Shown in pieces: positions 10,807 through 50,816 of a DNA stretch of 64,000 nt. The DNA is from Mesodorylaimus sp. YZB2_4 (Eukaryota > Nematoda > Enoplea > Dorylaimida > Dorylaimidae): assembly GCA_030248295.1 (NCBI GenBank), contig JASANH010001343.1, forward strand, positions 1 through 64,000. The letters are read 5' to 3'. Within the stretch, counting starts at the first letter, position 1. The number at the start of each line of letters is the position of its first letter. A program made the translations under genes and the position numbers. The notes under the pieces were generated by a model. That model had not been told where the DNA came from, did not search any database, and was given only the letters and a program-made list of their open reading frames with translations.

Positions 10807-11249
10807 GCTAGCTCTTATCAGTTTGATCTAGCTGCGTTCCGCTGCCTTTAGAGTATCTTACGAAGAAAAATCGAATGCGCACCATCTATACCCAATCATG
10901 CAATTAAATAACGTGGGGGGAAACCAAAAAAGGCGAATTAATGGATCGCACTCCAAAAACCATGAAACTGCTGAACTGCAGTAGGATATGAAATCAAGCA
11001 AAATTCTTAAACACGCGCAGTGTGTGCAGGACATGACTGCTCACATTAACAGACTGTGGGCTTTCGTGCAAGCAGGGACGACCCCAGCTAGAGAATTACG
11101 AAAAATGCGTGCGGCGTGGGTGTGCTGGGAAACAAAATTATTTAGCTTTATCCATACTATCAGTTCATACTCTCCTGACAAACTCTTCGTACATATTTTA
11201 ATCATTTCCGTTTCTGAATATGACATCATGTAATCCAACATGGTGCATA

Positions 11250-11564
11250 AAGCAAGTGCTTCAAGATTTCTGGCTCGAGAGGTAAGAATAAAACTGTAGG
11301 AAGAATAGAAAGTACGTAATATGTCTTAATTGCCATACTTTAACATCAACCGCATTAAAATCAAACCCCCTTAAAAATCGCAAGTTCGTTGCCCCTAACG
11401 TCTATGTAAAGAAAAGTAGTCTATGCGAGTCATGTTTATCGGGCGAAGAACTGCGTTTAGTGTGAAATACTAAACATCTATGGTAGCTGGACTGTTGTGG
11501 TGAAAAAAATAAGAAAAGAATCGACAAAGTAAATCATTCTCAGGTCGCGTATCCCAGCGCGCAT
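11250..11564 (-). pseudogene. FkbM methyltransferase pseudogene, 3' half (left of the inserted transposon)
   Basis: Reading the minus strand from the transposon edge gives YFTLNAVLRPINMTRIDYFSL. It aligns with YFPINTVLRSLNITRIDYFSL in the better-preserved gene at 20,680-22,925, and the conserved D-V-x-G-x-E-L helix region follows. Two indels break the frame: a 4-nt insertion after FSL and an extra G before the FDFNAVDVKVW stretch. There is also an in-frame TAG before YFTL. Homology fades at about 11,250. The piece belongs with 16,111-16,301, from which it is separated by the transposon. It is non-functional. Confidence 0.7.
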
Positions 11565-11566
11565 TA

Positions 11567-11789
11567 AAGGTATCGTTCATTGTGGATCGACCAGTTTCAG
11601 TTTTTGATGATTTTGGTGGTCATGGGGGAAAGAACCACGGCGAATCTAACAAAATCAATCATTTTATCGATATAAAGCCCCTAATTGACCAGCGGTCATT
11701 CTTTTCACAAATCCGAGTCCCGATTCTTATTGCAATGCGGAATCGAATTGGGCCAGTGTGCGCAGCGAAACGTAGGCAGCTCGACTGTC
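11567..11789 (+). repeat. Left terminal inverted repeat
   Basis: It matches the reverse complement of 15,887-16,108 along its whole length with scattered substitutions and small indels. The match ends sharply after GCAGCTCGACTGTC. The length is unusual for Tc1/mariner-type elements and fits elements with long TIRs. Confidence 0.85.
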
Positions 11790-12002
11790 TTTTTTTGAAG
11801 TGACTGATGGATTGACGTAAGTTACGAGGAGCAATTGGTTTTTGTATTTCACACATATCGATTTTCGCTCCAAATTTCCTTCCAAGTTTTTGAAATACTA
11901 TTGACGCTGTAAAAAAAGGAGGTCGATGCTAACGAAAATTTTGGAAGGGATCAAGATAGCGAACGGCAATCATTATGCGCTGAAAAAGCTTATCGGTTCT
12001 AG

Positions 12003-12918
12003 CCTTCAAATGAAAATAAACGCTTACGGCAACTGTTGGATGAGAGGAAAAGACAGTTGGCTGCGAAGCACAGGTGAATGACTAAGTCTGCTTTTTTGTT
12101 CCCTTCGCCAGGTTCCTCGATTATACATAAAGTTAGTTTTCCTATCATACTGTAGGACGAACAATGTACTCCGTGCAAGAATCGATGACGATCGTCTTGC
12201 AAATCTATCCTGGTGCTCATGCAAGCCCGACGGAGCAGGCGATCATGGTTGCACAGCAGAGCATAGATTTCCAAAATCTTGTTTTTGTTGCAAGGAGGCA
12301 GCCGCTTCTGGTACCCAGTACGGAATGGCATACCATGCTCGAATGGGTCAGAGCAAATGCATCGTCAATGCGGATGGGTTTCACGAACGTGGCTTAGCAC
12401 CGCTGGTAAGAGGCCTCGAAACTTTTACTTATTTTTTATTATTTCTGACCTTCTACATTCCCACCTTGCTCATGTCTTGATAAAATGGCGAACTTCATAA
12501 TTTCAGAAAATTTAAGGGTGGGCTGAAGCACTTTAAGAGCAAAAAGGATTGTCTATGCCTGAAGGAGGATTTGAAAATCGGTGAGCCTATAGCTTTGATT
12601 TATATGTCGAACAGAAGGCACAGTGATTCTTTTTTGCCAGCGAGCTGCGTTATGCTGCATATCGCAGTATCACATTTTGGTTGCACGGCTCGTTAAGACA
12701 TTAACGCCGGGTGCCCCTTTGTTCGTGCATTGTGAAAGCAGTTCTAAAGGTGAGGCCTCGACGAAACCATCTTGCCTAGGCAGCCCCCCTGTTGCTGATG
12801 CTTTTTTCGCTTATGTTATTTCTTGTAGGCTTGGCCGAATCCTTTCAATGCGCTGTACAAGGATTACGAGATCGCTGATGAGGAAGAGCTCATGATCAGT
12901 AGTGATGACGAGGACTGA
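12003..12918 (+). pseudogene. P2X7 intracellular (ballast)-like Cys-rich domain protein, transposon-encoded
   Basis: The exon model is 12,003-12,073, 12,156-12,405, 12,540-12,580 (weak acceptor), 12,641-12,749 and 12,829-12,918, with GT-AG introns of 60-134 bp. Exon 1 is a charged helix (RLRQLLDERKRQLAAKHR). Exon 2 has the SWCSC, CFCCKE and KCIVNADGF cysteine clusters. Later exons give ELRYAAYRSITFWLHGSLRH, then PLCSCIVKAV..WPNPF, and an acidic tail EEELMISSDDED. The order WC-x-C, CC, CI..F, LR..AYR...W..G, P.C.C..K matches the zinc-binding C-terminal domain of P2X7 receptors, which also occurs in many transposon-linked animal proteins. An in-frame TAA at 12,702-12,704 interrupts the AYR region, so this copy looks dead. 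There is no channel domain. A DNA- or protein-binding role in transposition is inference. Confidence 0.65.
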
Positions 12919-13189
12919 CAAAGCGAACTCTGTTTTCCATTGTGATGATATGAGAAGGAAGAATTTTGTAACATTCCAACGGACCCTTTTGCACCAAGCC
13001 GCATCTCTACAATAAACAAATCAATTCACCAAATAAAGTAATAATATTAAAAATATTTCAGCATGTTTTTGAGCTTACTAGAAGTCAGTCTCCACAACCT
13101 CGTCATCAACTCCTCCGCGACGACGGCGATAGTCGCGTTCTAGCATTGTCAGACGGTTTGGACGCTCAAAAGCGGATACCAATGGTTTT

Positions 13190-14872
13190 TCAGGAACGAT
13201 TGAGCGCGTCTGCGACAACCTTTTTCACCCATGATTCGCTAATAGCAAGCGAGAAAGCGAGATCGATTAAGCTTTGAGACCATCGATATGAGTGCGGCGG
13301 GGTCGTCTTTTTCAAGCGCCATTCATTTGCTGAAGGTGGCACAGCAAGGTAGAACAAGCTAGTTCCATCCAAAGTGAGAGGAGGAGCTCGATTATAGTTC
13401 TCTTCCCAGCCAGTTTCGTACGAACGGAGAATGTGCAATCGCTAAAGTGGAGCCTCTTTGGAACATATTTCAACAAGACCGCATGATAAATTTCGAGTGG
13501 CGACGTGACAAGAAAATGACGACAACGTAGATTGCGTCGCTGAAGGTCCTTGTCGTTGACCAATCCTAGAAAAGCTTGATAGGCCGGCGAGCCCCGAAGC
13601 AAGAATGAAGCTAGATTGACAGCGTACTCGGTGAGGTGTTCGCAGCAATGAATCTTGGTGAACGCGGTATCCCTTTCCCATTCATGGACGTCAAAGAAAT
13701 GATAAGCGATACTACGCCATCGTTCGAGCAACCAGTCCCCATCGCCTTTGCATGTCTTCATGGCCGTCCACAAAAAATTGGTTATTGACTTGCTCCAATA
13801 ACCGACTTCACGATTTGCCGCCCAACACGCCAAATCGTTCAGCCTCTTTACCGCTTTCAGAAGGTGCCATGGGTCTCCATCATGGCGAATCGAAAGAATG
13901 GCTTGGCTCATCATCTTTATAACGGCGCGGTTGCCGTCTGTTACGATCGCAGCTGCGCGAATTGGAGGTGGTAAGTTGAAATCGTTGTCAGCTGGTAGAT
14001 GAGCCAATGCAGTGGCAACTTGCTCATCGTCTCCTCCAAACAAAGCTACCATCGCATTCATGTCGAAGCTCCTTGGATCGCAGGGGTGGACGAGCGAGTT
14101 GAGCACTGTCCTCGTTCCTACACTTTGCATGGCGCTACTAGAGGACACATCATTGTCGTGTTTCTTCCTCCAATAGCAGGCAACGATGCGCATTCGGTCC
14201 AGGTCGAGAGCAGTGACTAAGCCATAGGTTGCTGAGAAGCCAGGGCGACTAAAGCGGCCATCCATCGCCAGCCTCAACGATGCATTTGGATCAGCAGTTT
14301 GCTCCAATCTGATCTCTTGAAACAATTTTTCCTCGCGCTCAACGTAAGCCTTATCGATGGCGTCGCACAGATATGTTTTGCAATAGGCGTAAACGGTTCC
14401 TCGGCACATGATTTGGAAATTCATGTCTGCAGAGATTCCAGCGAGGTCCTTATACGTGTTTCCTGCCATCAAAGTCGCTGCCATATCCATAAAATTTCCC
14501 CGATGAATTAATAGTGTTTCTGTTGGTGGAAATGACCGCCACAACTGCGTTTCGCACCGGTGGCAATGCTGCTCAGCGCGTATGTCCACGCCTGACAAGA
14601 AAATCAAAGTTTCAAAATCGCATAGTTCACCACACTTCATGCATCGCTGAAGCAAGACTCGCAGCTGGCTCTCAGTGACCAAGAATATTCGAGATTGATC
14701 TGGCTTCAAACGATTTCTAGCAGTCTGTTTTTCCTAGAAACGTCGGCGCTTGAAAGTCGTTTCGAGCATGAATGATTCATCGCTATCCATAAAGGCCATT
14801 GAGCGAGCGCAGAAACGGACGAAATACTTTCCTGAAGCCCCAAACCAATTGTTATACTTCATAGTCGATAGG
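13190..14872 (-). pseudogene. DDE-type transposase (animal DGR..SPG family), broken
   Basis: The main frame is 13,312-14,709. Counting from 14,709, it shows C-x2-C pairs at residues 23-26 and 49-52, AMDGRFSRPG (candidate catalytic D150), IVTDGNRAV (D258), HDGDPWHLLKAVKRL and LEIYHAVLLKYVPKR (E406). This order of D, D, W-H-x-x-K and E-x-x-H motifs is typical of an RNase H-fold transposase family seen in many invertebrates and fish. Upstream the same frame continues to ATGs at 14,790 or 14,872 but is cut by a TAG at 14,734-14,736. Near 13,405 a 1-nt shift moves the C-terminus (..WRLKKTTPPHSYRWSQSL..) into the frame ending at 13,190; it aligns with the second copy at 44,980-45,499. One nonsense and one frameshift make it inactive as it stands. 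Confidence 0.75.
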
Positions 14873-14911
14873 CAAAACGAGCTCATTAACATGTACTTAC
14901 GATGGAACTGT

Positions 14912-15886
14912 TCAACTGCGATAGTTGTATTGATGCATCTGGAACCAACCCACGATCTGGTATCGATGTTGGAGATCCTTGAGCGTCTGAATCAGATTGC
15001 AATGGTCGAGAAGATTTACCAACGGGAGTTGGTACTGGCACCTATAATATTTTTCTTTGCCCACTGACACATGCATTTTGGACCTACATAGAAGCAGGCA
15101 GTTCAAAGTAGCCCCAGAATCACTCCCCCCTGGGAAGTAGTCCCAGGAGCACTCGTAATCAGATAATCTGCCCACCTCAAAACGGTCATGGCCTTATTAA
15201 AGCCAAGTAACGGCAATGCTGGGGGCACGGACGGAGCCGTTTTCCGAGAATAGCTCCGCTGATGAGGGTCCACTTTTCCCAGGATTTTTGCTTATGGGCC
15301 CCAGAAAATAACTGCCTGCCGCACCAAGCGCGGGCGCACGCATTGTGGGAGTGAAGTACTGTAGAAGAGTGCCGATAAGACTCCATAAGGTACTGTACAG
15401 CAAAGATTGGAAAAGACGATGGTCTGACATAGACCCGCGCCTAGAACCAATATCCTCTCCTCACACTTTCTGTGAATCAAAAACTTACCTTGCATGGAAA
15501 ATTGGGGCCCAATCTGGTCGGAACAGCACCTTTCGTGAGAGTAATAGAGTTCTTGTGCTCGACCAGGTACTGATCTTCGAAATGCAATATGCAAACCACA
15601 GGGTCCTTGCTTAGTTGAACCGCATGCACGCTTCCGCATGCAGATTTCTTAGCCAAGTTTTCCGCCGCTTGTCGTCCTTTGGCAATCAAAATAAAGCTGT
15701 TCAAGGACCTTTATTTTTCCCAACATTGCAGTACCGAACTGAATACCTTTGCAGCATATTGAACGTAAAAAATATACGCAATGTAAACGAAAACAATAAA
15801 TCAAACAATCGTACTTTTTACTTTTAAAAGTTAGTATAATAAACAAACTTGATCAATACCGGTGAAAAAACGTACGCAGGGGGCTG
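14912..15886. other. Interior of the transposon without a supported gene
   Basis: This lies between the transposase 5' end and the right TIR. Short frames on both strands (for example 14,912-15,175 minus and 15,345-15,614 plus) show no recognisable motif. Promoters for the transposase would be expected here, but I see no clear TATA box. Confidence 0.4.
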
Positions 15887-16108
15887 GACAGTCGAGCTGC
15901 CTACCTTCCGCTGCGCACACTGGCCTAATTCGATTTTGCATTGCAATAAGAATCGGGGCTCGGATTTGTAAAAAGAGTAACCGCTGGTCAATTAGGCTCT
16001 ATATCAATCAAAATGATTGATTTTGTTAGATTCGCCGTGGCTCTTTCCCTCAAGACCATCAAAATCATCGAACACTGAAACTGGTCGCTCCACAGTGAAC
16101 GATACCTC
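15887..16108 (-). repeat. Right terminal inverted repeat
   Basis: Reverse complement of 11,567-11,789. The outer end is GAGGTATCG on the minus strand, followed by TA at 16,109-16,110. The element-specific interior begins at 15,886 and inward. Confidence 0.85.
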
Positions 16109-16110
16109 TA

Positions 16111-16301
16111 GGACAGGAGAGGACACTGGGTAGAAACTCAAAAGCGATTCCATGCTTGACCAGAGTGCTGTAAGGCCCATTTAAATGAAGGCCAAGTTTC
16201 CGAGGTCTCTTTTCGCTTGATATGCATACATTTAATAGCCAGGCCTCACGTTTCTTCGTTCGAAGTAATGCAGAGCTGAAAGAATTTGGTTCGACAAACA
16301 A
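16111..16301 (-). pseudogene. FkbM methyltransferase pseudogene, 5' half (right of the inserted transposon)
   Basis: The frame reads VEPNSFSSALLRTKKREAWL then LNVCIS, matching IEPN..RKRRKAWLLNGCIS-type sequence of FkbM methyltransferases, where the E-P-N stretch follows SAM-binding motif I. It runs into the transposon at LPSVLSCPR. A parallel copy is at 38,090-38,290 on the plus strand. With 11,250-11,564 it formed one methyltransferase domain before the insertion. Upstream motif I is not intact here. Confidence 0.7.
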
Positions 16302-16499
16302 CTCACTCCACTAGTAATCCCTCTTCACGGTAAGTTTCCTAGAATCAGTCTCTTTATCAAATGCGCCAGCCTCAACAGACACATCGCAAGGGCCTAGTTC
16401 ACACGGAATCTTGATTTTCGCATTTTGTGACACTGAAAACCTAGAGATGAATGCATAAAAAAAAGAGACAGTGAATCTGAAAAAATTAAAAATTTTAGA

Positions 16500-17600
16500 A
16501 AACTCCCAAAAAAGATTTCGTTTGCACGCGAATCATGATGTACGCACGCGCTCATGATCAGCACGCGGCTCATGATCAGCGAGTCACCGCCTTCATCATA
16601 TTCGTAATTAGCGCACTACATTACTCAGTTTTAATAAAAAAAAAGCCAAATTTTCATAGTCCGAATAAGCCATATTTAAATAATGGAAACGAAATATGGG
16701 CAAGGGAAAATGGGTGTTTGGCAGAAAAGAGGGCGGCTGGCTGGCAGCCATTAGAGCGTGGGCACTTGCCGAATTGAATCTTTGTAACTTCAGACAAATC
16801 CCATAAAAATGAAGCAGTGTTGGTAAAGAGGAGCATTCCTCGTTAAACCTGGCATTTCGCACTCACTGACAAAAAAATTCGCATTTTACATCTGAAGAAG
16901 TTTTTTACACTGCAAATTTTTTTTGTTGGAGCAGCGCAAGAAAATCTCAGCATAATAAATGTGGGAGTTTTTAGAAAATCTGCTTGATATACGTTCGACG
17001 TTTTGTTGAACTCATTTAGCGTGTACATAAATTTTCTATAGTCAAAGACTCGATACCTTTTTTGATTGATGTCCAGTCTGCGAATGTAGGTCGCGCATAT
17101 ACGTACATGAAATTCTTCAAGAGACTGGCGCCACCAAGGATGATGCTGTCGAATCGCCCCCAGGCAAATATTTCCGCATTCCAAGAGCACTGAATTCTTT
17201 TCAGGTGAATCATTTCGCTTAGCGCAGCACTCGTTTAAACTTACTGTATCCGCACTAGAAATGAGAAACCACAACAAAAATTTTTGTTTTTTTTTTGTTA
17301 AAAAAAGTGTCGGAGAATGTGTTTTGTCATCATTTGAATATGAATACACTGGAAGTGTGTCATCTTGCAGCAATTAAGATTAAAAAATGTGATGCAACTT
17401 TGCTTTTTTTTCTAGAACAGAACCTGTAACAAAAATATCCTGTCTAATAGTTTTTAATTGCATTTCGAAAGTAACCTTTATACAGATAGAGTCAGCTGTG
17501 GTCAGCTCTTCAAGTCGCCCACATTCCAAAGTCGCCTGAGCCTGAGCCGACCTTATCACACAATGGACAACGCGTGCATGCAACTGATAACACAATTACC
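16500..17600. repeat. Copy A of inverted duplication, FkbM-linked part (partner 36,905-37,990)
   Basis: This is the reverse complement of 36,905-37,990 with roughly 10-15 percent visible differences. A more diverged third copy occurs at about 61,530-61,850 and 62,360-62,560. The block ends at GGTAATTGTG, exactly where the inverted-repeat element at 17,598 begins. Confidence 0.75.
16843..17373 (-). other. Conserved unrecognised open frame, 176 codons
   Basis: An uninterrupted minus-strand frame includes CLGAIRQHHPWWRQSLEEF, then ICATYIRRLDINQKRYRVFDYR. In copy B (37,225-37,473 plus) the same frame is open over ICLGMIRQHLPW..CATYIRRLDINQNRHRVFDY and then hits a TAA. A TTTCTAG acceptor-like site precedes the conserved part in both. 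I know no family for it. It might be an extra exon of the FkbM gene family or a non-coding segment open by chance. There is no ATG close to the conserved part. Confidence 0.3.
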
Positions 17601-26462: not shown

Positions 26463-29400
26463 TTACATGTCCATCATGTCAAAAAGTATCCTGAACATAT
26501 TCTCAAAATTTGGATTATCACGTTGTGAAGCTCTAAACAAGAAAAATTCAGATCGTATGAAAGCAAAAAGTGCATGACTTGATGGAATGACACTCTTCAT
26601 GCGGCACTTATAAATAAAGATTGTTGTCCATAACAACATTAAATTCACAGGGATATTTTGATTTGGCGCGCCTAAGAGACAATTTGCTTTCGTCAAAAAA
26701 GAATCTACTCCTACGCTCTGTAACTTATCTTCTGAATCTGCCCACAATGCGCGTGAGAAAACACAGTAGAAGAAATAATGCTCGAAATCATCAGGTGACT
26801 CGTCACACAGAGGACAAGTTTCAGATGGTTTTATTTTCCTTAAGAATAAAAATCGACTTGTGGGAATCAGCCTATGCAAAACTTTCCATTGGAAACTTAT
26901 GTGCAAGAAGGGTAATTTTAGTCGAGGTAATAGCCGAAAGAAGGGCACTATTTCAGAAATGCCAAGATCTCGTATCCATGAGCGTTCAGAGGTTTGAGGA
27001 GAATACACGGAACTAGAGAGTAGGGAATAGAAAATCTTACTACGAGAACCTGATAATGGCTTATAAGAAGAGAAAGTGGGTTGAAAGAAAATAGGAGCAG
27101 GGGGAATCAAGTACTAAATATCCTGGATCTGATCAAAATGATCGTGAAACATAATGCGCCAGTGCGCCGGGATGCAGTCTCTAACCTGAGCCCAGCGAAA
27201 CCAATCAAGGCGGGAACAAAGATTAAAGCGATCCCCAAAAGTATCAAAACATAGAAAAGAACCCTTTGAGTCGAAAAATTGACCAACACAGAAGATACCT
27301 GACTCAGCCCATGACGGAAAAAAAACGTCTTTTGCCAATCAAAAGATCCTTGTTATGCCAAATGATAATTCGAGACAATTTGGATACATTTTGGAAAGGA
27401 CACGGACCTTTGGGAAGGGAAAACCAATTATTTAGGGCAGCTTTATAAAAAATGAGAAAACGAGTTATAGAATATTTCATGTCGAAATTACAGGCCAAGA
27501 AAAAGACGCCTCTGAAGGGTTTAAGACGGTTGTTTAGATGGGCTCGCCAGCCAGGAAGATTTGGATCTGCGCAAAACCGAGCTAACCAGGCAATGCGTAG
27601 ACTGGAAGCATTAAGACGGATATCAATTATTTTGAGGCCGCCCTGAGAAAGAGGAGAGATTGTAGTAACACGTTTAACCTTCGGGGGAGAACGCCAAATA
27701 AAAAATTCTGTAGATTTTTGATATGCTTGCAAAATAGACTCACCAGGAACCAAAAACTGAAAAGGATAGGTAAGCTGTGATAAGCATAAGGTTTTAACTA
27801 CGAGATAACGCCCAATCAGACTGAGACCACGTAGTTTCCACCGATTTAGAAGGCAGTCATAAGTTTCCACTCTTTTTTTGAAATTCAATTTATATTGATT
27901 TTCTTCATCACCACAATTTAGCCAAGCTCCCAAGTACTTCACCGCTCCACGTTCAATGCGGCAACCGAGAGCATCCAAAACAGAGGGGTGGTCCTGCTTT
28001 ATAGGCAAGATTACAGTTTTATTTGGATTAAGAGTCAGTCCAGAAAGTTTGCCGAAGTCTTGGAAAAGTTGAAAACTCCTGAGGATCGATCTGGAGGATC
28101 GATGAGTAGTAACGGCATCATCTGCAAGACACAAAATGGGGATTTTTGAGGAAGCAAGACTCAAGGCCGAAGAAGACAATTTAGTTTTGTAAGAAGAGAC
28201 AAAAACTTGCATACATATAATGAAAAGATAGGCTGATAGAGGATCTACCTGACGACAGCCTCCGCCATACTCGAACGGCTCCGTAAGATCTGAATTGACA
28301 ATTATTGAACAGCAGATATGTGAATTTAGGAGTCGAACCAAATTTATGAAACTAGGGCAACGTATATGAAATCCCATTCGATACTATCAAAGGCTTTCTC
28401 AAAGTCATAAAAAACAATATAACCTTCGCTTCCAGAAATTGAGTGTGAGTCGATTAGATCAGATAAGGTTCTTATATGCTCGCAGATGAATCGTCCCTTC
28501 AAATAGGCCAGTTGCTCAGGTGATAAAAGATCAGATATAACCTGCAACAAACGATTTGTTACAGCCTTCGATATAATTTTGTAATCAATATTGAGGAGCG
28601 CAATGGGCCTACGAGCTTTTTGAAACTTGAATTTGTCTTCCTGGGGAACAGGTTTACGAATCAACCGGATTACTGACCTGCGCTGTTCGGTGGACAACAT
28701 ACCCAGCTCGAACGAATAATCAGAAGACGCACGGAAGACATCTGAAAAATCGAGCCAAAACTTTTTAAAGAATTCTAATGGGAAGCCATTTAACCCAGGA
28801 GATTTATTTCGAGACATTGAGAGCAATGCAGAGAGAAAATCTTGATCAGAAAGAGCAGAGGAAAGCAGTAAACGCTGAGCTTCAGAGAGCCGAGGAAATT
28901 CAGGACCTGTAAAGAAGTTGTGATTTTGTAGAATAATTTGTTCAGTCCTGGATGATGGAAACAGGTTAGAAAAAAAGGTTCGGATTTCTGATTTTATTAT
29001 AGATTGATCCGCAATCAATCGGCCATTTAATTCGATGCACTCGATAACTGTGTTTTTTAATCGAGTCTTTTCTAACTGGAAAAAGTACCGAGTACTACTT
29101 CACCTGACTCCGCCTATCTGACTCTAGATCTAACCATAGCTGCTTTAAGTCTGCACTTATCAAGCGTCTTTAAATCGGAATGACACGCCTCGAAACGATT
29201 CATCCCGGGACCCAGATCCAAATCGAGAAAATTATTGGGAGCTTCGAAAAGAAATTCTGACAAAAAGTTTATTTCGGCTATTAGATCCTCTTGTTCTTGT
29301 TCCTGAACCCGTTTTCGATTCGTACAAAAATTAATTGTAACACCTCGTAATATAGTCAATAGGAGGTCCCATTTCACGTGAGGATTTGGGAAAGTCCCAT

Positions 29401-30251
29401 AGTCGTTTTTAAAGCCCATGATTTCTTGCTTGATCAGATCGATATACTCTCAGACTTCAAGCAAGAGAACATTTCACTTCCAGTAAGGGGACCTTGTTGA
29501 AAAAAAAAGGAGCGGAAAGGGCTCCATTCAAAAGAGTAGGAACAATGATCCGAGAAGGGAGTGGGGATGATTGAAAAAGAAAGAAGAGCCTCGTGAACGT
29601 CTGTGGACGTAAAGATGAAATCTATCCTGGAAAAGACCACCAAGGATCTTTGAAAACGGATGTACCCCTGGTCATTACCTCGGTGAGATCTCCAAGAATC
29701 TTCCAAATCAAAATCGGCACTTAGACGAAGAAGTCTCTGAGCAAAAGCTTTTTCGACAAAGGCGTGATCCCCATAAGAAGATTTATCCAATTTAGAAAGG
29801 AGAGTATTCAAATCACCTCCTAAGAAAATAGGGTCCGAGTCACTCGAAATGAGATCAAGAAAAATTTCCCTGCTTATCATTTCAAAAAACTCAACACGCG
29901 CATTACTTGACAAATCAGGAGCATAAACATTCACAACATGAAAAATCTTGTTCGAAAAAGAGAGACGGGCATGAATGAAACGTCCATGTTCATCTAGTTT
30001 TGAGTTGAGGACAGATATTCTAGAATTACGCTTAAAGAAGATTCCAACGCCGCAACTGTGATTACTGCCATGAGAAAGAAGGCAGTCACCGCCCCATTCT
30101 GACCTCCGGAAACGAGAATCATCTTCCAAACTATGCTTTCTTGCAGAAACCCAATGTCAACTTTACGGTCTCTCGAGAACGAAAAAATTGATTTCCTTTT
30201 GACTCGGTCCCGCATCTCTTTATCATTATTTCCAAAAAAGTCTGTTATCAC
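26463..30251 (-). pseudogene. L1/Tx1-like LINE ORF2: AP endonuclease, reverse transcriptase, zinc knuckle
   Basis: Read from 30,251 downward. The endonuclease shows DIGFLQES, GGDLNT, RIDFIF and SDHCSYSFEW. A linker (29,114-29,419) precedes the RT, with SPGLNGFPLEFFKKFW, RRPIALLNIDYKIISKA, YDFEKAFDSIEWDFI, GGGCRQVDPLSAYLF and the catalytic LADDA (canonical F/Y-A-D-D; the aromatic is Leu here). The C-terminus (26,463-27,110) carries CPLCDESPDDFEHYFFYC, a C-x2-C-x8-H-x4-C knuckle. The frame changes at about 29,430, 28,360, 27,320 and 27,108, so the copy is dead, though motifs remain clear. APE-type endonuclease plus this RT layout points to the L1/Tx1 group. The N-terminus is replaced near 30,226 by inverted-repeat sequence. 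Confidence 0.85.
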
Positions 30252-40385: not shown

Positions 40386-40442
40386 TTATTCTTTTCATTG
40401 GACCGCACTCCATTGAAATTTCGAATTCGACCATATTTCGCA

Positions 40443-43400
40443 ATGGCGCACGCAGCGCAAGCCGGAGACGATATCCAGCAACGGATTAGTCGTTTCAAAT
40501 TTTCTCAGTTCGACTCTAAAGCGGAGGAATGGAAGTATTACATTCAACGCTTCGAAATGGAGTTGACATTGCAGCAACTCGACGGAGCTGAAGCCACCGT
40601 CCAGGCAGCACGTCGAAACCTATTGCTCAAATGGGTTGGACCAGAGCTTTATCGCCTCGTTCTGGATCATTTCGCACCAACGCCTATAGGAGATGAGACA
40701 TACGCCAGGATCAAAGAGTTCCTGGACGGCTATTACAAGCCAGCCACCAATTACTTATTGGAGCGCGTGAAGTTTGGACAGTGTTTTCGTCAACCAGAAC
40801 AATCCATCGTCCAATTCACAAATCAGTTACGCTCAATAGCGACTGGCTGTCAGTTTGGTAACACATTGGAGGAGCGCCTACGCGACCAATTTCTTCTAGG
40901 TCTTCGCAATCCGAGTATGCAGGAGGAACTGTTTCGTCAGCATTCTCAGGTTACAGCGACGTGGGCGGACATTGGAAGAACAGCACTAACAATCGAGGCA
41001 GCACAATTACAGCGCAAGGTCCTTGAATCGCCAGGAGTGATGTCAAACGCGAGCACTGTCAGTAAAGTTTGCGCAAAGAAACCGTCCAAGGTACTTCCAG
41101 CCAAACACGACACGAAAAAGCCAGCATCTGCATCAACCGGCGCACCGAGAGTGGCGGATCCGAACAAACAGTGCATGCGGTGTGGACGAGACCGTCATGG
41201 GAACGACAGCAAGTGTCCCGCAAAAGACAGCAAATGCAATGCGTGTCATCAGACGGGTCATTGGGAAGTCGTCTGCATCACCAGCGGACGCGCCGTCAAG
41301 CCAAAAGCGGGACGCCCAGCTTCCAGGACGAATGCGGTTTCGTCAGCTCGAACTGAATTCTTCGTTTCAGACATGAATGCAACTGAGCACGGAGATGAAA
41401 AGCGGTACATGATCGAAGTTATCATTAACGGCAACAAGAAATTGTCATTGGAATTCGATACAGCCGCAGTTCGGACAGTCATTAGCAAAGGCACCTGGAC
41501 ACGGCTAGGCTCACCTGAGCTTCGTCCAACGGCAAACTTGGGCGCATACCCAAGGTTTACCATTGAAATGTTGGGAGAAACTACAGTTCCTGTTTCTCCA
41601 GGCAATCGCACCTTGCAGCTTCCGTTAGCAGTAACAAAGCAATACCACGGAATCCCACTTTTCGGGAAGGACTGGATCCAAGCGTTCAATTTGGAACCAC
41701 AGAGCGAGTTTATCAAGCTCCAGTCAATACATCTGGCGAACGTTAATCGGACATCGGCGGCACCTACAGGACAGCAAATCCAAATCGCACAGGACCCTGA
41801 GGTACAACAGCTGATCAAGGATTATGCAGATTTGCTCAGCGACAAACCAGGAGTGGTGCGAGGACACAAGGCAGCAATCCATCTTCGGGACGACGCACGC
41901 CCTGTCGTTTTCAAACCACGGCCTGTACCTTTCGCAATTCGCCCAGCAGCAGACGCGGAAATCGATCGGCTGGTACGTGACGGTATCATCGAGCCGGTGG
42001 ATCCCGCAGTCACAGCAGTTGAATGGGCATCCCCTGTCGTTTACGTTCCAAAGCCAAATGGCCAAGTACGACTTTGTGGCGATTTCAAAGTTTTAATCAA
42101 TCCGTACATGATTGTGGATCCTCATCCCCTGCCACGGTTCGAGGAGGTGGTCTCCAATTTCCAAGGGTTCACGGAATTTTCCGTGATCGACCTAAAGGAC
42201 GCATTCCTACAGTTGGAATTGGATGACAAGTCACAGAGGTATTTGGTAATCGCAACGCATCGCGGATACTACCGTTACAAACGCATGCCATTCGGGATTA
42301 GTTCAGCGCCAGCAATTTTTCAGCACTTCATGGACAAACTTCTCAGGGGCATCGACGGAGTTTCCTGTCTGATGGACGACATCGCAAATGGGGGCTGGAC
42401 CAGAGAAGAGCACCTTCACCGGCTTCGTCTTATTTTTAGCAAATTGCGCCAAGTCGGTTTGCGAACACAGACTTCGAAGCTACGCCTAATGCAAAAGGAA
42501 GTCAGGTATCTGGGTTTCCGCATGGACAAGGACGGCATTCACCCAGTCTCCGAAGGTATTGAGGCTTTACGCAACCTGCCAACACCCACCAACGCGTCAG
42601 AGTTACGCTCTTTTCTTGGATCGATGAACTTTTATTCACGGTTTATTCCGAATTTGCAAAGCACCTGCATCCCTCTTCATCGCCTTACGAAGAAGGGAGT
42701 CGCATGGAAGTGGACGAAAGCAGATGACGCAATCTTTAACGAATTGAAGAAAGCAATTTCATCCAAGGACACCTTAGTTCATTTCGATTCTTCGTTGCCA
42801 GTCATTCTCGCAACAGACGCATCCAAGCGAGGGGTCGGGGCCATCTTGATGCACAAATATCCAGATGGTACAGAGAGGCCAATTGCAGCGGTATCTCGTT
42901 CATTGAAACCAGCTGAGCAACGGTATTTACCAATCGATCGCGAAGCATTGGGAATCATGTTTGGAGTCAGCCAGTTCCACCAGTATCTCTACGGGAGGAA
43001 GTTCGCTTTAAGGACGGATCATAAACCGCTCGAACGAATTTTTGGCGAGCACAAAGAAATTCCAAAATTGGCAGCATCCCGCTTGACACGCTGGGCCATC
43101 ACACTCAGCGCATACGATTACAAAATCGAATATGGTCCAGGCAAGGAGAATTCTGCTGCTGACGCACTCTCTCGATTACCATTGCCATCTACGGAGGCAA
43201 CGGAAATGGAAGATGGCGATGCGAGAGCAATTTGTCAACTACGTCAAGATAAGGAGAATAATTCGTTTTTGGGAAGTCCAGTTGCACAAAACGTGCATTC
43301 GATTTCTCCAGAAGTGGTTTTCATCAATCCGTCGGAATCAACAAGAAAAAGAAAAATTGGAGAGAATCCATGGACTCCATTGTCACCATCAGAACAGACA

Positions 43401-43535
43401 AATGTTGTTGTGGAAAGTCACCTGGATTATAGGCCCAACGGCGAACTAGGTAATTTAGTCACATTTTTGGGGCCGTTTCTTCACTTTCATACTCTGAATT
43501 ATGAACAAAAATGTCTCGCAATTTCATCTTTGTAG
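40443..43535 (+). CDS. Ty3/gypsy Gag-Pol polyprotein, integrase missing
   Basis: One long open frame (first ATG 40,443). Gag includes KAEEWKYYIQRFEMELTLQQ and QCFRQPEQSIVQFTNQLRSI. Two zinc knuckles follow (CMRCGRDRHGNDSKC, CNACHQTGHWEVVC). The protease has LEFDTAAVRTVIS (D-T-A in place of the usual D-T-G). RT has RLCGDFKVLINPY, FSVIDLKDAFLQLEL, MPFGISSAPAIFQHFMDKLL and the catalytic LMDD. RNase H has ILATDASKRGVGAIL and ALRTDHKPLERIF, then ADALSRLPL. The frame then runs about 100 codons with no integrase zinc finger or D-D-E core and ends at 43,535. Homology to pol probably stops near 43,440, where unrelated transposon-like sequence starts. The open frame suggests a fairly recent insertion that was 3' truncated. 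Confidence 0.85.
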   Translation: MAHAAQAGDDIQQRISRFKFSQFDSKAEEWKYYIQRFEMELTLQQLDGAEATVQAARRNLLLKWVGPELYRLVLDHFAPTPIGDETYARIKEFLDGYYKPATNYLLERVKFGQCFRQPEQSIVQFTNQLRSIATGCQFGNTLEERLRDQFLLGLRNPSMQEELFRQHSQVTATWADIGRTALTIEAAQLQRKVLESPGVMSNASTVSKVCAKKPSKVLPAKHDTKKPASASTGAPRVADPNKQCMRCGRDRHGNDSKCPAKDSKCNACHQTGHWEVVCITSGRAVKPKAGRPASRTNAVSSARTEFFVSDMNATEHGDEKRYMIEVIINGNKKLSLEFDTAAVRTVISKGTWTRLGSPELRPTANLGAYPRFTIEMLGETTVPVSPGNRTLQLPLAVTKQYHGIPLFGKDWIQAFNLEPQSEFIKLQSIHLANVNRTSAAPTGQQIQIAQDPEVQQLIKDYADLLSDKPGVVRGHKAAIHLRDDARPVVFKPRPVPFAIRPAADAEIDRLVRDGIIEPVDPAVTAVEWASPVVYVPKPNGQVRLCGDFKVLINPYMIVDPHPLPRFEEVVSNFQGFTEFSVIDLKDAFLQLELDDKSQRYLVIATHRGYYRYKRMPFGISSAPAIFQHFMDKLLRGIDGVSCLMDDIANGGWTREEHLHRLRLIFSKLRQVGLRTQTSKLRLMQKEVRYLGFRMDKDGIHPVSEGIEALRNLPTPTNASELRSFLGSMNFYSRFIPNLQSTCIPLHRLTKKGVAWKWTKADDAIFNELKKAISSKDTLVHFDSSLPVILATDASKRGVGAILMHKYPDGTERPIAAVSRSLKPAEQRYLPIDREALGIMFGVSQFHQYLYGRKFALRTDHKPLERIFGEHKEIPKLAASRLTRWAITLSAYDYKIEYGPGKENSAADALSRLPLPSTEATEMEDGDARAICQLRQDKENNSFLGSPVAQNVHSISPEVVFINPSESTRKRKIGENPWTPLSPSEQTNVVVESHLDYRPNGELGNLVTFLGPFLHFHTLNYEQKCLAISSL

Positions 43536-44702: not shown

Positions 44703-44837
44703 GTAAGAACCGCATCGTGGGCACTATTTAATGGATTTTCCTGAGGTGCAAGTATGGGCAAGGTTGGCTGAGTCAAGGGAGTAGCGGGGTAGGAGAAGGG
44801 GGAAGATGGCAAAGATGAACTCTGGCCGCTGCCCACA

Positions 44838-45499
44838 TTGGCGAAGCGGGGCACATCCGCCGCCCCGCCGGCGATATCGAAGCTTTCCACCAGCTGTGCC
44901 TGAAATACTGCTACAAAAGAACGTGAGTGTTTCTTTCACAGCTTCACATCTCTGTGTCGTCAATCAAGCCCCCTTTTAGATACTACGGCTTTTTGGGCAT
45001 GACAATAAGGAAGTTGCTCGCCGCCCTAGACCATAACCATAACGTGCATAGGAAGGTCCTACTGGACAAAAAGGGAAGGCCCCGATTCGGAAAACGGTGG
45101 TCAAAAAGAGGAAGCCGGTGGATTGTCACCTGTCGAAAAGAAAAGAAAACTTATCCCTACCTTCCTTGGATATTGTCCGCCATTTTGCATGAAAGGTCGT
45201 CGACATCCCTCGATTTCGGTGTCCATGAAAAACAAATCCTGGAGCCACTGGTTAACGACCCGGCAGCCATTGCTCCAAATATCGCCTCTTACCAAACGAC
45301 AACCGCACGAGTGATTCGCTCAATGGAATCGCGGTTCGGTACAATATCTCAAATGTACGCATCCGACTCCGGCGGGGAAAAAGACGAAGCTGATGAACTC
45401 GATTTGAGTGTCGACGGAGAGGCAGACTCACAGGAAACCACGTCCGATTCCGATGACTCGGAATCGGCCACTTCCAGCCAAGACGGACAGAGTGATTGA
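44838..45499 (+). pseudogene. C-terminal part of a DDE-type transposase, second family member
   Basis: The first exon ends with GDIEAFHQLCLKYCYKR at 44,922. A 57-bp GT-AG intron (44,923-44,979, acceptor CCCTTTTAG) follows in phase. The second exon then reads YYGFLGMTIRKLLAALDHNH, then NVHR, RWSKRGSRWIVTCRKEKKTY and a long acidic Ser/Asp/Glu tail, with a stop at 45,499. It corresponds to LEIYHAVLLKYVPKR and the frame-shifted C-terminus of the transposase at 13,190-14,872. The catalytic D-D half and N-terminus are not seen upstream; a stop lies about 20 codons before. So it is a truncated copy of the same transposon family with an intact C-terminus. Confidence 0.65.
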
Positions 45500-46645: not shown

Positions 46646-46696
46646 AATTATTTGGTAGCAGAACGTGGTTGATTGCGGCTATCAACGATATCAACG

Positions 46697-49600
46697 ATGG
46701 CGGTCGTTGCGGCGAGGCTTCGAAAACAGCTCGCCCCTCGACGCCTAGCCCTTCGCCACCTACTCGACGCAAAACCTAATTTGGCAGTTATCAACGAAGA
46801 AACTACTCATGAAATCGACAAGTACAAGGCCCGCTTGCGAGCGCTTTTCGAGGGCTATAAGAACAAGTACGACGACTACGCGAACGCTGTGGACGATGCC
46901 GAGTCGGCTGAGTTCGTTACTGAAAGTGAGCAATACGCCCAAATGGAGATCGAATACGATATGGCGATCGCTGATATTAGCTGCTTTGAGAATCGGATGA
47001 TCGAGAAAGAGGAACGCCAGCTCAAGGCTAGGCTGGAGGCGGCAAAGGTGAACGCGGAGATCGAGCGAATTCAGTTGCAGATACGACTGCAAGAAGAGGA
47101 ACAAAGAATGAGGTGGGATATGGGGCGAGTCGAACAGCAAGCTCGAATAGAACGTGAGCGCGTCGAACAAGAAGGTCGTAGCAACCAAGCCGTAGGCAAC
47201 CAAGTTGGTATTAATCAAGGACGGCGTGGCATCGGTCAAATTCACGCCAAGTTACCCAAACTCGAGTTACCGAAGTTCAGTGGCGATCGGCTGCAATTCA
47301 AGCCATTCTGGGACACGTTCAACGCCTCGGTTCACGCGAATGATGCCGTCGCGCCTGTCACGAAAATGGCATATCTGGTGGCTCAACTAACGGGCGATGC
47401 GAAATCAGTGGTCGATGGCTTAGCTGTTACAAGCGAGAACTACGACACGGCGGTTCAGCTCCTCAAAGAGCGCTTTCGCAACGACCAAGAAATCATTCGA
47501 ATGCACCAACGAGCCATTGTTAATCTCGAGACCGCTCGGAACATGGAAAGCCTGCGCCAGCTGCAAACCAATCTCGAAAAGCATCTACGCTCGATCGAAT
47601 CAATGGGTGGCGCGGTCGATGAATCTTGGACGACAAGTTTGATTTGGCCAAAATTGCCAGCGTTTGTCCTCGAGAAGATCTACGAGAAGAAGCCTGCCGA
47701 GCAATGGACGCTCAAGGAGCTGCGAGCCGAATTGACCAAGATGGTATCAATCCATGATGCTGTTGCCCGCGAGCGTATCATGCAATACGAGAAACAAAAG
47801 ACGAGCCATGATCAGCTTAGCCATCAAAGCAGCGAAACGAGGGGAAAACCAAGCGTACCCAAGACGAGCCATGCGTTCCTGATCAACAGCAAGAGTAAGG
47901 CAAAGCATCCCTCAAAAGCTGTCACCAATCATGAGCCAGTCAAGAACAAACCTCGCTCTCCATGCACCTACTGCAAGGGCGACCACTGGGCCGATGAATG
48001 CGAACAGGTGCCTACAGTTGAGGAACGAAAGAGGAAACTCAAGGACAATTGTTGGCGATGTCTCAAACCAGGCCACCAAGCTGACCAATGCTGGGCGAAA
48101 ACGAAGTGCTATCATTGTCGAGACAACAGCCATCATTTAAGCCTCTGCGACAAGCGATCAAAAGCACCGCATATCGACACTGGGGCAACCACAACGACGC
48201 TCGCTTCAGATGTAAGCACCAGTCTGTTCACATCGAATCAAGCAATCCTTTTACAGACAGCGGTGGGTGATATCCAATCTTTGGGCCAAGCTCCCCGATC
48301 GATCAAGGGACGAATTCTTCTTGATAGCGGTAGCCAGCGAACCTATGTGACTGAAGAGCTAATCAAGCGGCTCGCAATTAAACCAACGTCGTTTGAAGAA
48401 ATCATGCTATACACGTTCGGTGCCAAGGAACCAAAGCGAATAAAGTCTGCAATTGTTGAGCCCCAATTAAAGGGCAAACATGGACAACGAATCAAAATCG
48501 AAGCGAATGTCGTCCCGCAGATCGCTCAATCACTTTGGCGGAGCGCCGCGATGCTCGCGGATCTGAAGGACATCCTCGACAACTATGAGCTAGCAGATCC
48601 AATCCTAAACGAATCAGAAACGATCAAGATAGATGTCCTCATCGGCATCAATGAATATGAGCGCATCATGCCAGCCAACAGCAAAGAAATCGGACCAAGC
48701 CTGTATCTCCGCAACTCTATCTTCGGGTGGATCGTTTTTGGCCAAACCAAGAACCAAATCAAAATCGCTGAGCCAGCCTCTACATTCAACTGCTTCGTCT
48801 CGTCAGTTGCAATCAACAGTCAAGAGCTGAATCACCTCGAGCCACACATCAAGGATCAAGCTCAAATCAACGACCTGTGGGAACTCGAGAAGATTGGCAT
48901 CACTGATCAAATCAATGAACGTGATGACGAGAAAGCCATGCAGATATTTAATGAAACTATCAAATTCGAGGACAATCGGTATCAAGTTCAATGGCCGCGA
49001 AAAGGTGAACATCTTGATCTGCCAGACAACTATGGCCTATCCATGGGGCGACTCAAGTCAGTTATCCGTCGCCTACAATACGACCCTGAGCTGATGATTA
49101 AGTACGATGCTATAATTCAAGATCAACTACAAAAGGACATCATCGAGAAGATTGATAAAGACGAGATAGATGGCCATGTTCACTATCTGCCGCACCATCC
49201 TGTGATTACGCCTGACCGAGCCACGACAAAAGTATGGATCGTCTACGATGGCTCTGCCAAGACAAGCAATCAACAGCGCAGCCTGAACGAATGCCTGTAT
49301 AGGGGACCAGTCATTCTAGACGACTTGGCCCAACTGCTGCTGCGCTTCCGAATGAACGAGGTGGCCTTGATCGCGGATATCGAGAAGGCGTTCTTGCAAG
49401 TCGAACTTCAACCCGTATCAAGGGACGTCACGCGATTTCTATGGCTCAAGGATCCCAACAATCCAAGGGTCGATGGCAACTTGCAAATCTATCGCTTCAA
49501 ACGGGTACCTTTCGGCGTCATTTCAAGCCCGTTCCTGCTCGGAGCAACTATCAAGCACCACCTGCAACTCAGTAGCGATCCAGTAGCCAAGAAAATACAG

Positions 49601-50816
49601 GACAACATGTATGTAGACAACATGATCACAGGCGTGCAATCAACGGCTGATGCAATCGATTTCTATCAAATCGCAAAGAAACTGTTCAATGAAGCATCAA
49701 TGAATCTGCGAGAGTGGAACTCAAATGATCAAGAATTCCTTAAAGCGATTCCAGAGGTAGACTGAGCGAGGGCGGCTCAAACAAAAGTCCTAGGCACCAA
49801 GTGGGACACATGTTCAGACACCATCTCAATCAACCATAGGGAGCCTGGCATCGAAGGCAAGCCGACAAAAAGGTCAGTACTCAGCTTCATTCACAGGGCC
49901 TTTGAATCTCTTGGCCTCATGTGCACGGTCATGGTCAATATCTGCCACTTCTTTCAAAGTCTATGGACGACAGACCTCGAATGGGATGATCAATTAGCGA
50001 AATCCAACAAAGACAAATGGGATCAGATTCGAACAGAAATCAATGACCTCAATCAAATCAAGTTACCGAGGTACCTGGGCAGCGGCCAGGGGCCACATCA
50101 ACTGCATGTCTTTTGCGATGCATCAGAAAAGGCGTATGGAGTACGCCAGTCGACTCAAAATCAAATGGAACTTCATCACCGAACGATCGCCATGGAAAGG
50201 TGGCTTCTATGAGCGGCTGATTCGATTGGTCAAACAGGCGTTTCGGGAATCGATACAATCGATCATGTTATCACTGAGCCAAATGACTACGGTGCTGGCT
50301 GAAATCGAATCAATCATCAATCAAAGGCCAATCACCTACGTCGACAACGACCTACGCGGTGGCACGATCCTTTCCCCCGCCTGTTTCATCACGCCGCCAA
50401 CAATCAATGGATCAATTGAATCAGAGCCCATCCTTCCCAAATCAATCGAATCAATGGGTACGCGCAGGGCGCTAATAGAATGGTGGAAGAAGCGAATTCA
50501 ATATCTGAACCAATTCTGGGCTGTTTGGTCTGAGCAGTACCTCCTGGCCCTACGAGAGAGGCATCAATCGACTGTCAAGCATCCGCGCTCAAGCCTCAAG
50601 GCGACACCACAGGTCGGCGATGTGGTCCACGTGCGAGAGGAGAATCATACACGAGGCAAGTGGCAACTGGGACGAATAGAAGCAGTCAAGGGCCAATCTG
50701 ATCGCTCAGTCCTAACTGCAACAGTGCGCCTGCCAAGTGGGCAATCAATCAATCGATCAATCATCCACCTGTACCCGATCGAAATCCCTGAAGACGAAGA
50801 TGGATCTTTCAAATAA
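46697..50816 (+). pseudogene. BEL/Pao Gag-Pol polyprotein, nonsense and internal deletion
   Basis: First ATG at 46,697. The N-terminus is a long charged helix (ERQLKARLEAAKVNAEIERI). The DUF1759-type Gag region has LPKLELPKFSGDRLQFKPFW. Three knuckles follow (CTYCKGDHWADEC, CWRCLKPGHQADQC, CYHCRDNSHHLSLC). The peptidase has ILLDSGSQRTYV. RT has ALIADIEKAFLQVEL, RFKRVPFGVISSPFLLG and MYVDNM; YVDN is a known variant in this clade. An in-frame TGA at 49,762-49,764 interrupts RT, and the frame then continues to the RNase H start (HVFCDASEKAYG). At about 50,145 a deletion removes the rest of RNase H and the N-terminal and catalytic parts of integrase. The frame resumes shifted at the integrase C-terminal region (PWKGGFYERLIRLVKQAF, ..GDVVHVREENHTRGKW..), with a stop at 50,816. 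It cannot encode integrase. Confidence 0.85.

Follow-up and report, generated by a model that had tools for sequence, protein, structure and literature searches.

Kolobok DNA transposons of the Kol0 group encode a second protein, KolX, beside their transposase (PMC9587614, Kojima and Bao 2022). In the main text of that study, KolX resembles residues 476-595 of the receptor P2X7 and has seven conserved cysteines, and P2X7 is traced to a fusion between KolX and a P2X4-like gene. Kolobok elements are described there by a TTAA target site and by 5′-RR and YY-3′ ends; MuDR and Kolobok are both listed with a C/DxxH motif, and a zinc finger between C/DxxH and E is ascribed to almost all Kolobok but Kolobok1. 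Ballast-type domains not associated with P2X have been reported across animals, two nematodes included (PMC7016195), and the word start 'transpos' is absent from the main text of that paper. Here we analyse a 64-kb stretch of Mesodorylaimus sp. YZB2_4 (contig JASANH010001343.1, positions 1 to 64,000; hereafter the window), in which positions 11568-16107 very probably represent a decayed 4.5-kb Kolobok DNA transposon of Kol0 type, with two genes and a cut-and-paste mode of movement, the Kolobok placement being made from features and not from a tree. Since PMC9587614 describes Kol0 elements together with KolX, this kind of element is already known: a P2X7-like gene in Kolobok has been in print since 2022, and what is new here is further examples from this genome and, possibly, a variant that binds DNA.

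With the Kol0 group (Kolobok-1_XT type) the elements described here share the TTAA duplication, the 5′-RR...YY-3′ ends, a DDE transposase with C/DxxH placed between its second D and E, and a KolX carrying the P2X7 ballast domain. They differ in their host genome and in forming several diverged families; in this genome KolX is spread over five exons and runs towards the transposase gene. Other Kolobok groups, KolobokP, KolobokE, KolobokD and KolobokH, likewise combine a Kolobok transposase with an accessory gene according to the main text of PMC9587614, but theirs are nucleases or a helicase in place of KolX. With regard to the His-Me finger nuclease of KolobokP, the second gene of the genomic copy L009 matched only P2RX7_C in Pfam, in a search not aimed at nucleases. 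Direct repeats of at least 20 bp, and with them the long terminal direct repeats of KolobokP, were absent from window positions 11000-16700.

The coordinates of all features are collected in Table 1. The inverted ends of the element, ~222 bp long, were resolved into two pairs of arms, 11565-11665/16010-16110 (101 bp, 91%) and 11672-11789/15887-16004 (118 bp, 90%). AG...CT termini, in keeping with 5′-RR and YY-3′, were read in the window copy and in L009, L010, L013, L014 and L018. The last five also carry TTAA followed by AGGTATCG at both ends; they make up five of the nine other two-ended copies and represent four independent insertions, L013 and L014 sharing their flanks. At five further places a single end was visible.

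The transposase of the window copy is a minus-strand open reading frame (ORF) of 465 amino acids with D150, D258, WHLLK and E406. It is frameshifted after residue ~433 and separated from an upstream THAP-domain exon on the same strand, which scored 49.5 bits in L009, 48.2 in L052 and, in its degenerate window form, 19.1. Against PDB the window protein gave one weak match (9j09, E 0.1), which was not used. D164, D271, D292-x-W-H295 and E420 were invariant in all eight transposases of an alignment, as were C334, H351, H356, C370, H372 and C410, which lie between DxWH and E in a stretch rich in potential zinc ligands and are candidates for the four ligands of the published zinc finger. Identities to L051 in this alignment ranged from 29 to 57%, its near-copy L052 excepted. 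Two members of other families, L048 and L051, matched PF20700 ('Mutator-like transposase') with 63.3 and 40.8 bits, and they hold open transposase frames of 619 amino acids in C229 (L048) and 560 amino acids at the start of contig C533 (L051).

KolX was read from aligned copies. Its five exons measure 158, 250, 74, 109 and 90 bases in the window, L009 and L010, with small length changes in L011 and L014, and every internal exon edge is GT/AG in all five of these copies, which are the ones read by script. Three other aligned copies lay outside that reading: L013 is without the stretch around the exon-2 acceptor, and in L016 and L017 similarity is lost after exon 2. The window product shows, in order, WC-x-C, CC, LR.AAYR..W..G and PLCSC. 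It is a pseudogene without ATG and with four in-frame stops; taken with the broken transposase, the window copy is unable to make either protein whole. L010 has one stop, L011 lacks ATG and has one stop, and L014 lacks ATG and carries stops and a frameshift. L009 KolX reads without interruption over 226 amino acids and offers a reading available for testing. Its product matched Pfam P2RX7_C (PF20478) with 23.9 bits for a cut-off of 23.5. Relatives in the same genome scored higher (38.5 bits for an ORF in C229, 52.7 for one in C392), and a six-frame genome search with P2RX7_C gave 12 places above cut-off. Pfam returned nothing useful for three small window ORFs.

P2X7 in PDB was reached by way of the C392 exon and a profile, since L009 KolX alone found none. 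The C392 exon retrieved P2X7 chains with E 4.8e-9. Eight KolX rows, of which seven join an exon-2 to an exon-4 piece, were made into a profile that aligned along its whole length with P2X7 residues 476-579 (E 3.4e-4). Among the positions invariant in all eight rows are W1, C2, C4, C26, C27, C50, R93, Y97, W103, G106, C119, V121 and R125. The P2X7 ballast domain has seven cysteines as zinc ligands; in KolX, six cysteines (2, 4, 26, 27, 50 and 119) are shared by every row, C50 being unaligned with any P2X7 cysteine, and the third cysteine of WCxCxxC has a different spacing in the window family. In terms of the P2X7 ballast domain (PF20478; PDB 6u9v and 9e3m, among others), all rows keep WC-x-C (476-479), CC, R546, Y550, C572 and R578, and seven of eight keep A549. 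H547 and P570 occur in five and four rows, respectively, and neither in the window family. The guanosine site of P2X7 is given as R546, H547, R574, R578 and K583 in the main text of PMC7016195; R574 is replaced by V in every KolX row, and K583 lies beyond the profile. Unlike P2X7, KolX is a small stand-alone protein with no channel part.

A first-pass annotation of the window had proposed inverted repeats of ~222 bp enclosing a minus-strand transposase (D150, D258, WHLLK, E406) and a convergent multi-exon plus-strand gene with the residue order of the P2X7 zinc domain. The repeats were recovered as the two pairs of arms, the transposase motifs lie at exactly the residues named, and the gene has its GT/AG edges and zinc-domain order, the window copy of it being a pseudogene. 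Of the Pfam searches it had recommended, that with the L009 product gave P2RX7_C and those with the relatives L048 and L051 PF20700; the window transposase itself matched no family. The THAP exon had been overlooked, and the gene had not been recognised as the published KolX of Kolobok Kol0 (PMC9587614).

The element is repeated across the 145-Mb genome. A DNA search with its left 534 bases gave 39 matches, and KolX exons gave 92, so that the element is not a chance arrangement. We fetched and compared 17 places from the DNA search. L009, L011, L013 and L014 are near full length, L010 keeps ~2.9 kb, L012, L015, L018 and L019 are shorter, and at the remaining eight the element aligned only in part. 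Over the aligned length, identity to L009 is 93.6% for the window copy and 98.2% for L010. Arm-to-arm difference is ~10% in the window copy, 10-11% in L011, L013 and L014, and 2% in L009 (the value for L010, out of register, was unused); accordingly L009 seems to be younger than the window copy, a reading to be taken with care because the two arms may already have differed when an element inserted. L011, L012, L013 and L014 were counted as one insertion because flanking sequence is common to all. These four copies, on three contigs, may be a duplicated insertion or alternative assemblies of one locus. The deleted copies L015, L018 and L019 (~0.9, 2.6 and 2.8 kb) keep one or both ends together with pieces of KolX exon 1 and gave no match to either transposase query; they are probably non-autonomous derivatives. 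The right end of L015, like that of the window copy, bears CTAG where TTAA is expected, by chance or as an end effect.

We then asked how constantly KolX accompanies the transposase. Search matches to both were typed by hand, extra rows at the same places being omitted; merging yielded 71 transposase and 49 KolX clusters. A transposase cluster lay within 5 kb of 29 of the 49 KolX clusters, for a chance expectation of ~0.5%. The orientation was convergent in 27 of these 29 near pairs; the exceptions, C450 and C768, belong to a second type of KolX locus characterised by a CXC-like motif (see below). Conversely, 28 transposase clusters measured at least 1 kb, and a first count placed KolX within 5 kb of 15. 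For 11 of the other 13, the downstream DNA was probed with KolX exon profiles from three and four other loci, and convergent KolX was found at ten (C512, C595, C490, C456, C221, C405 twice, C70, C222 at 133 kb and C872). Two of these matches are weak or partial: at C872 exon 4 alone was matched, and the C405 place at 57 kb gave E 0.0025 for exon 2 and 6.3e-8 for exon 4. At C113 no KolX was found in 2.3 kb of downstream DNA. A KolX match was therefore present at 25 of 26 checked transposase clusters of at least 1 kb (C24 and C854 were outside the check), a figure that counts loci and not independent insertions, C485, C287 and C377 being one insertion and the two C405 places looking like mutual copies. 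Transposases whose identity to L051 falls to 29-34% still share KolX.

Selection was examined in six exon-2 sequences, giving 15 pairs, 12 of them between lineages. Between C278 and L009, the non-synonymous (dN) and synonymous (dS) divergences were 0.27 and 1.39. The dN/dS ratio of C278 to L009, C485 and the window was 0.17 to 0.20, and C534 compared with C19 gave 0.19 over 3.06. These four are the between-lineage pairs with finite dS; the other eight were saturated synonymously, with changes mostly on third positions. The three close-copy pairs (window, L009 and C485) gave ratios of 0.5 to 1.2 from few changes, as expected of copies decaying after insertion. These substitutions show purifying selection on KolX exon 2 between lineages, with dN/dS near 0.2. 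Together with the match at 25 of 26 clusters, this argues that KolX is part of the element and not cargo. The first-pass annotation had assigned the P2X7-like domain to the transposon itself, as the convergent pairs now bear out, and had left it as either partner or captured cargo, of which the first is retained and the second is opposed by the sharing among such distant transposases and by the selection on exon 2. It had also set copies lacking the P2X7-like gene as a refutation; the only candidates are the deleted copies L015, L018 and L019, which keep pieces of that gene. The present data are an independent confirmation, from diverged families of one genome, that a P2X7-like gene is a standing component of Kolobok and not a chance neighbour, and they support the view of a human receptor domain derived from a transposon.

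Several observations weigh against reading the window element as a Kol0-type transposon with KolX as its own gene. At its ends, the right flank (16108-16111) is CTAG in place of TTAA, and four of the nine other two-ended copies (L011, L012, L015 and L019) fail TTAA at one end at least, L012 owing to truncation on the right. On the transposase side, the window ORF matched no Pfam family, and its near relative L010 stayed under the PF20700 cut-off (21.1 vs 26.5 bits). As to KolX, the L009 score is barely above the P2RX7_C cut-off, the six-frame search did not return the exon-split window family among its 12 places, and whole L009 KolX found no P2X7 in PDB, its matches being two beta-glucosidases (E 0.22-0.23). 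No copy of the window family was seen with both genes intact; in L009, where KolX reads through, the transposase match holds two stops. Finally, for 20 of the 49 KolX clusters no transposase was matched within 5 kb. Some of these are deletion copies, on C12, C79, C180 and (at 33 kb) C287; one is a piece from the start of C210, and two, C392 and C337, belong to the second locus type.

What marks this second type, seen at C392, C450, C768 and C337, is a CXC-like motif of nine cysteines that lies upstream of KolX and shares its strand. Three of these places are the best of the 12 ranked with P2RX7_C (C392, C450 and C768) and the fourth, C337, is the weakest. A search for the nine-cysteine pattern in 71 loci, several of them overlapping, found it at those four places only, and it is absent from the 64-kb window. 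All nine cysteines are invariant across the four loci. Pfam TCR and preSET_CXC were each matched by three of the four motifs, with best E-values of 0.0011 and 0.0025; one member scored 19.7 bits for a cut-off of 23.5, and longer ORFs scored lower. As a search of PDB gave no CXC structure, the label 'CXC' is taken from the weak Pfam scores and the nine cysteines. At C768 the motif and a WC-x-C stretch stand in one ORF (L067:4563-5252). The joining of motif and KolX is a candidate at C392 and C450, and no WC-x-C stretch was seen downstream at C337. In the wider DNA retrieved at C450, C392 and C768, a further ORF is common to all three loci, and two of them carry a distant Kolobok-like transposase, divergent at C450 and on the same strand at C768; inverted ends were not found in 6 kb at these loci. 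A 662-amino-acid open frame lies ~1 kb beyond the C392 KolX (L066:3712-5697, plus strand), which by eye only we take to be a retroelement ORF of surface-glycoprotein type. In the text of PMC3447885, CXC domains have nine invariant cysteines, hold three zinc ions and contribute to DNA binding. The main text of PMC9587614 contains none of 'CXC', 'tesmin' and 'THAP', and the CXC-like motif at four KolX loci may be a new side finding. It is the sole handle that we found on KolX function, and, as a lead, it suggests DNA binding.

How the element might move can be sketched from its families. Binding of the long inverted ends would fall to the THAP domain, and their cutting and rejoining at TTAA to the DDE core. 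For KolX we tentatively favour, at less than moderate confidence, the role of a transposition cofactor: an accessory protein, stabilised by zinc, that would join the transposase on DNA or chromatin and might, for instance, help to bind the ends or the target. The two arginines common to KolX and the P2X7 guanosine site may confer nucleotide control. A narrower proposal, that KolX is a DNA-bound transposition factor joined in the second locus type to a CXC-type Zn3Cys9 DNA-binding domain, is more doubtful. If true, the cytoplasmic tail of P2X7 would descend from a nuclear transposon protein working on DNA.

The main rival is a regulatory KolX, acting on the element or on the host response, for instance as a transposition repressor or an anti-silencing factor. 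Accessory genes of transposons can be regulatory, and the sole Pfam match of KolX, the ballast domain, names no enzyme; the CXC-like motif at the four loci of the other type favours a DNA-bound role, yet it would fit a repressor too. We regard regulation as a serious possibility, though one still short of likely. In contrast, it is very improbable that KolX is captured cargo, a host ballast-domain gene carried by one transposon family. Such genes without P2X association are indeed known across animals, as the main text of PMC7016195 reports, and the 20 KolX clusters lacking a nearby transposase match would suit a host gene, but KolX accompanies transposases only 29-57% identical to L051, its convergent order and purifying selection speak for a component of the element, and the main text of PMC9587614 reports it for the Kol0 lineage. 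Least probable of all is a transposase of another superfamily, Mutator-like or piggyBac: in Pfam the DDE part passes the cut-off for PF20700 'Mutator' alone and piggyBac likewise uses TTAA, yet AG...CT ends, TTAA, DxWH and the KolX cysteines jointly fit the Kolobok description in the main text of PMC9587614, where C/DxxH is common to MuDR and Kolobok, so that a match to the Mutator profile is unsurprising.

Table 1. Features of the window element and of the CXC-like motifs at other KolX loci. Positions without a locus name are those of the window.
Feature	Position	Strand	Basis
TTAA, left target-site copy	11564..11567	no strand	reading of flanks
Left terminal inverted repeat, begins AGGTATCG	11568..11789	+	repeat search
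KolX exon 1, without ATG, 1 in-frame stop	11916..12073	+	aligned copies and exon-reading script
KolX exon 2, WC-x-C ... CFCC ... C cysteines	12156..12405	+	exon-reading script, KolX exon matches
KolX exon 3, 2 in-frame stops	12507..12580	+	exon-reading script
KolX exon 4, ELRYAAYRSITFWLHG ... PLCSC, the P2RX7_C core, 1 in-frame stop	12641..12749	+	exon-reading script; family match via L009 product
KolX exon 5, acidic tail and stop	12829..12918	+	exon-reading script
Transposase-profile match; DDE core D150/D258/DPWH/E406 in ORF 13312-14709	13081..14733	-	profile match and ORF
Transposase C-terminal part, other frames	13193-13441, 13081-13224	-	profile match
Degenerate THAP-domain exon, upstream of transposase core	15477..15704	-	19.1 bits, cut-off 23.9
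Right terminal inverted repeat	15887..16107	-	repeat search and genome copies
CXC-like motif, C392	L036:976-1074, L066:1708-1806	same as KolX	
CXC-like motif, C450	L037:899-994, L065:3920-4015	same as KolX	
CXC-like motif, C768	L038:2216-2311, L067:5064-5159	same as KolX	
CXC-like motif, C337	L047:656-754	same as KolX	

Outside the element, the window gave no convincing KolX or CXC match. At 44819-45496, on the plus strand, lies a fragment with a long retroelement-like ORF on either side; it aligned with the C-terminal portion of the transposase profile (for 44927-45496, E 8.7e-8) and looks by eye similar to the C450-type transposase. Long ORFs were seen at 40398-43535, 46673-50816 and 26463-30129, and by eye we take these three to be two gag-pol frames of long terminal repeat (LTR) retrotransposons and one non-LTR retrotransposon.

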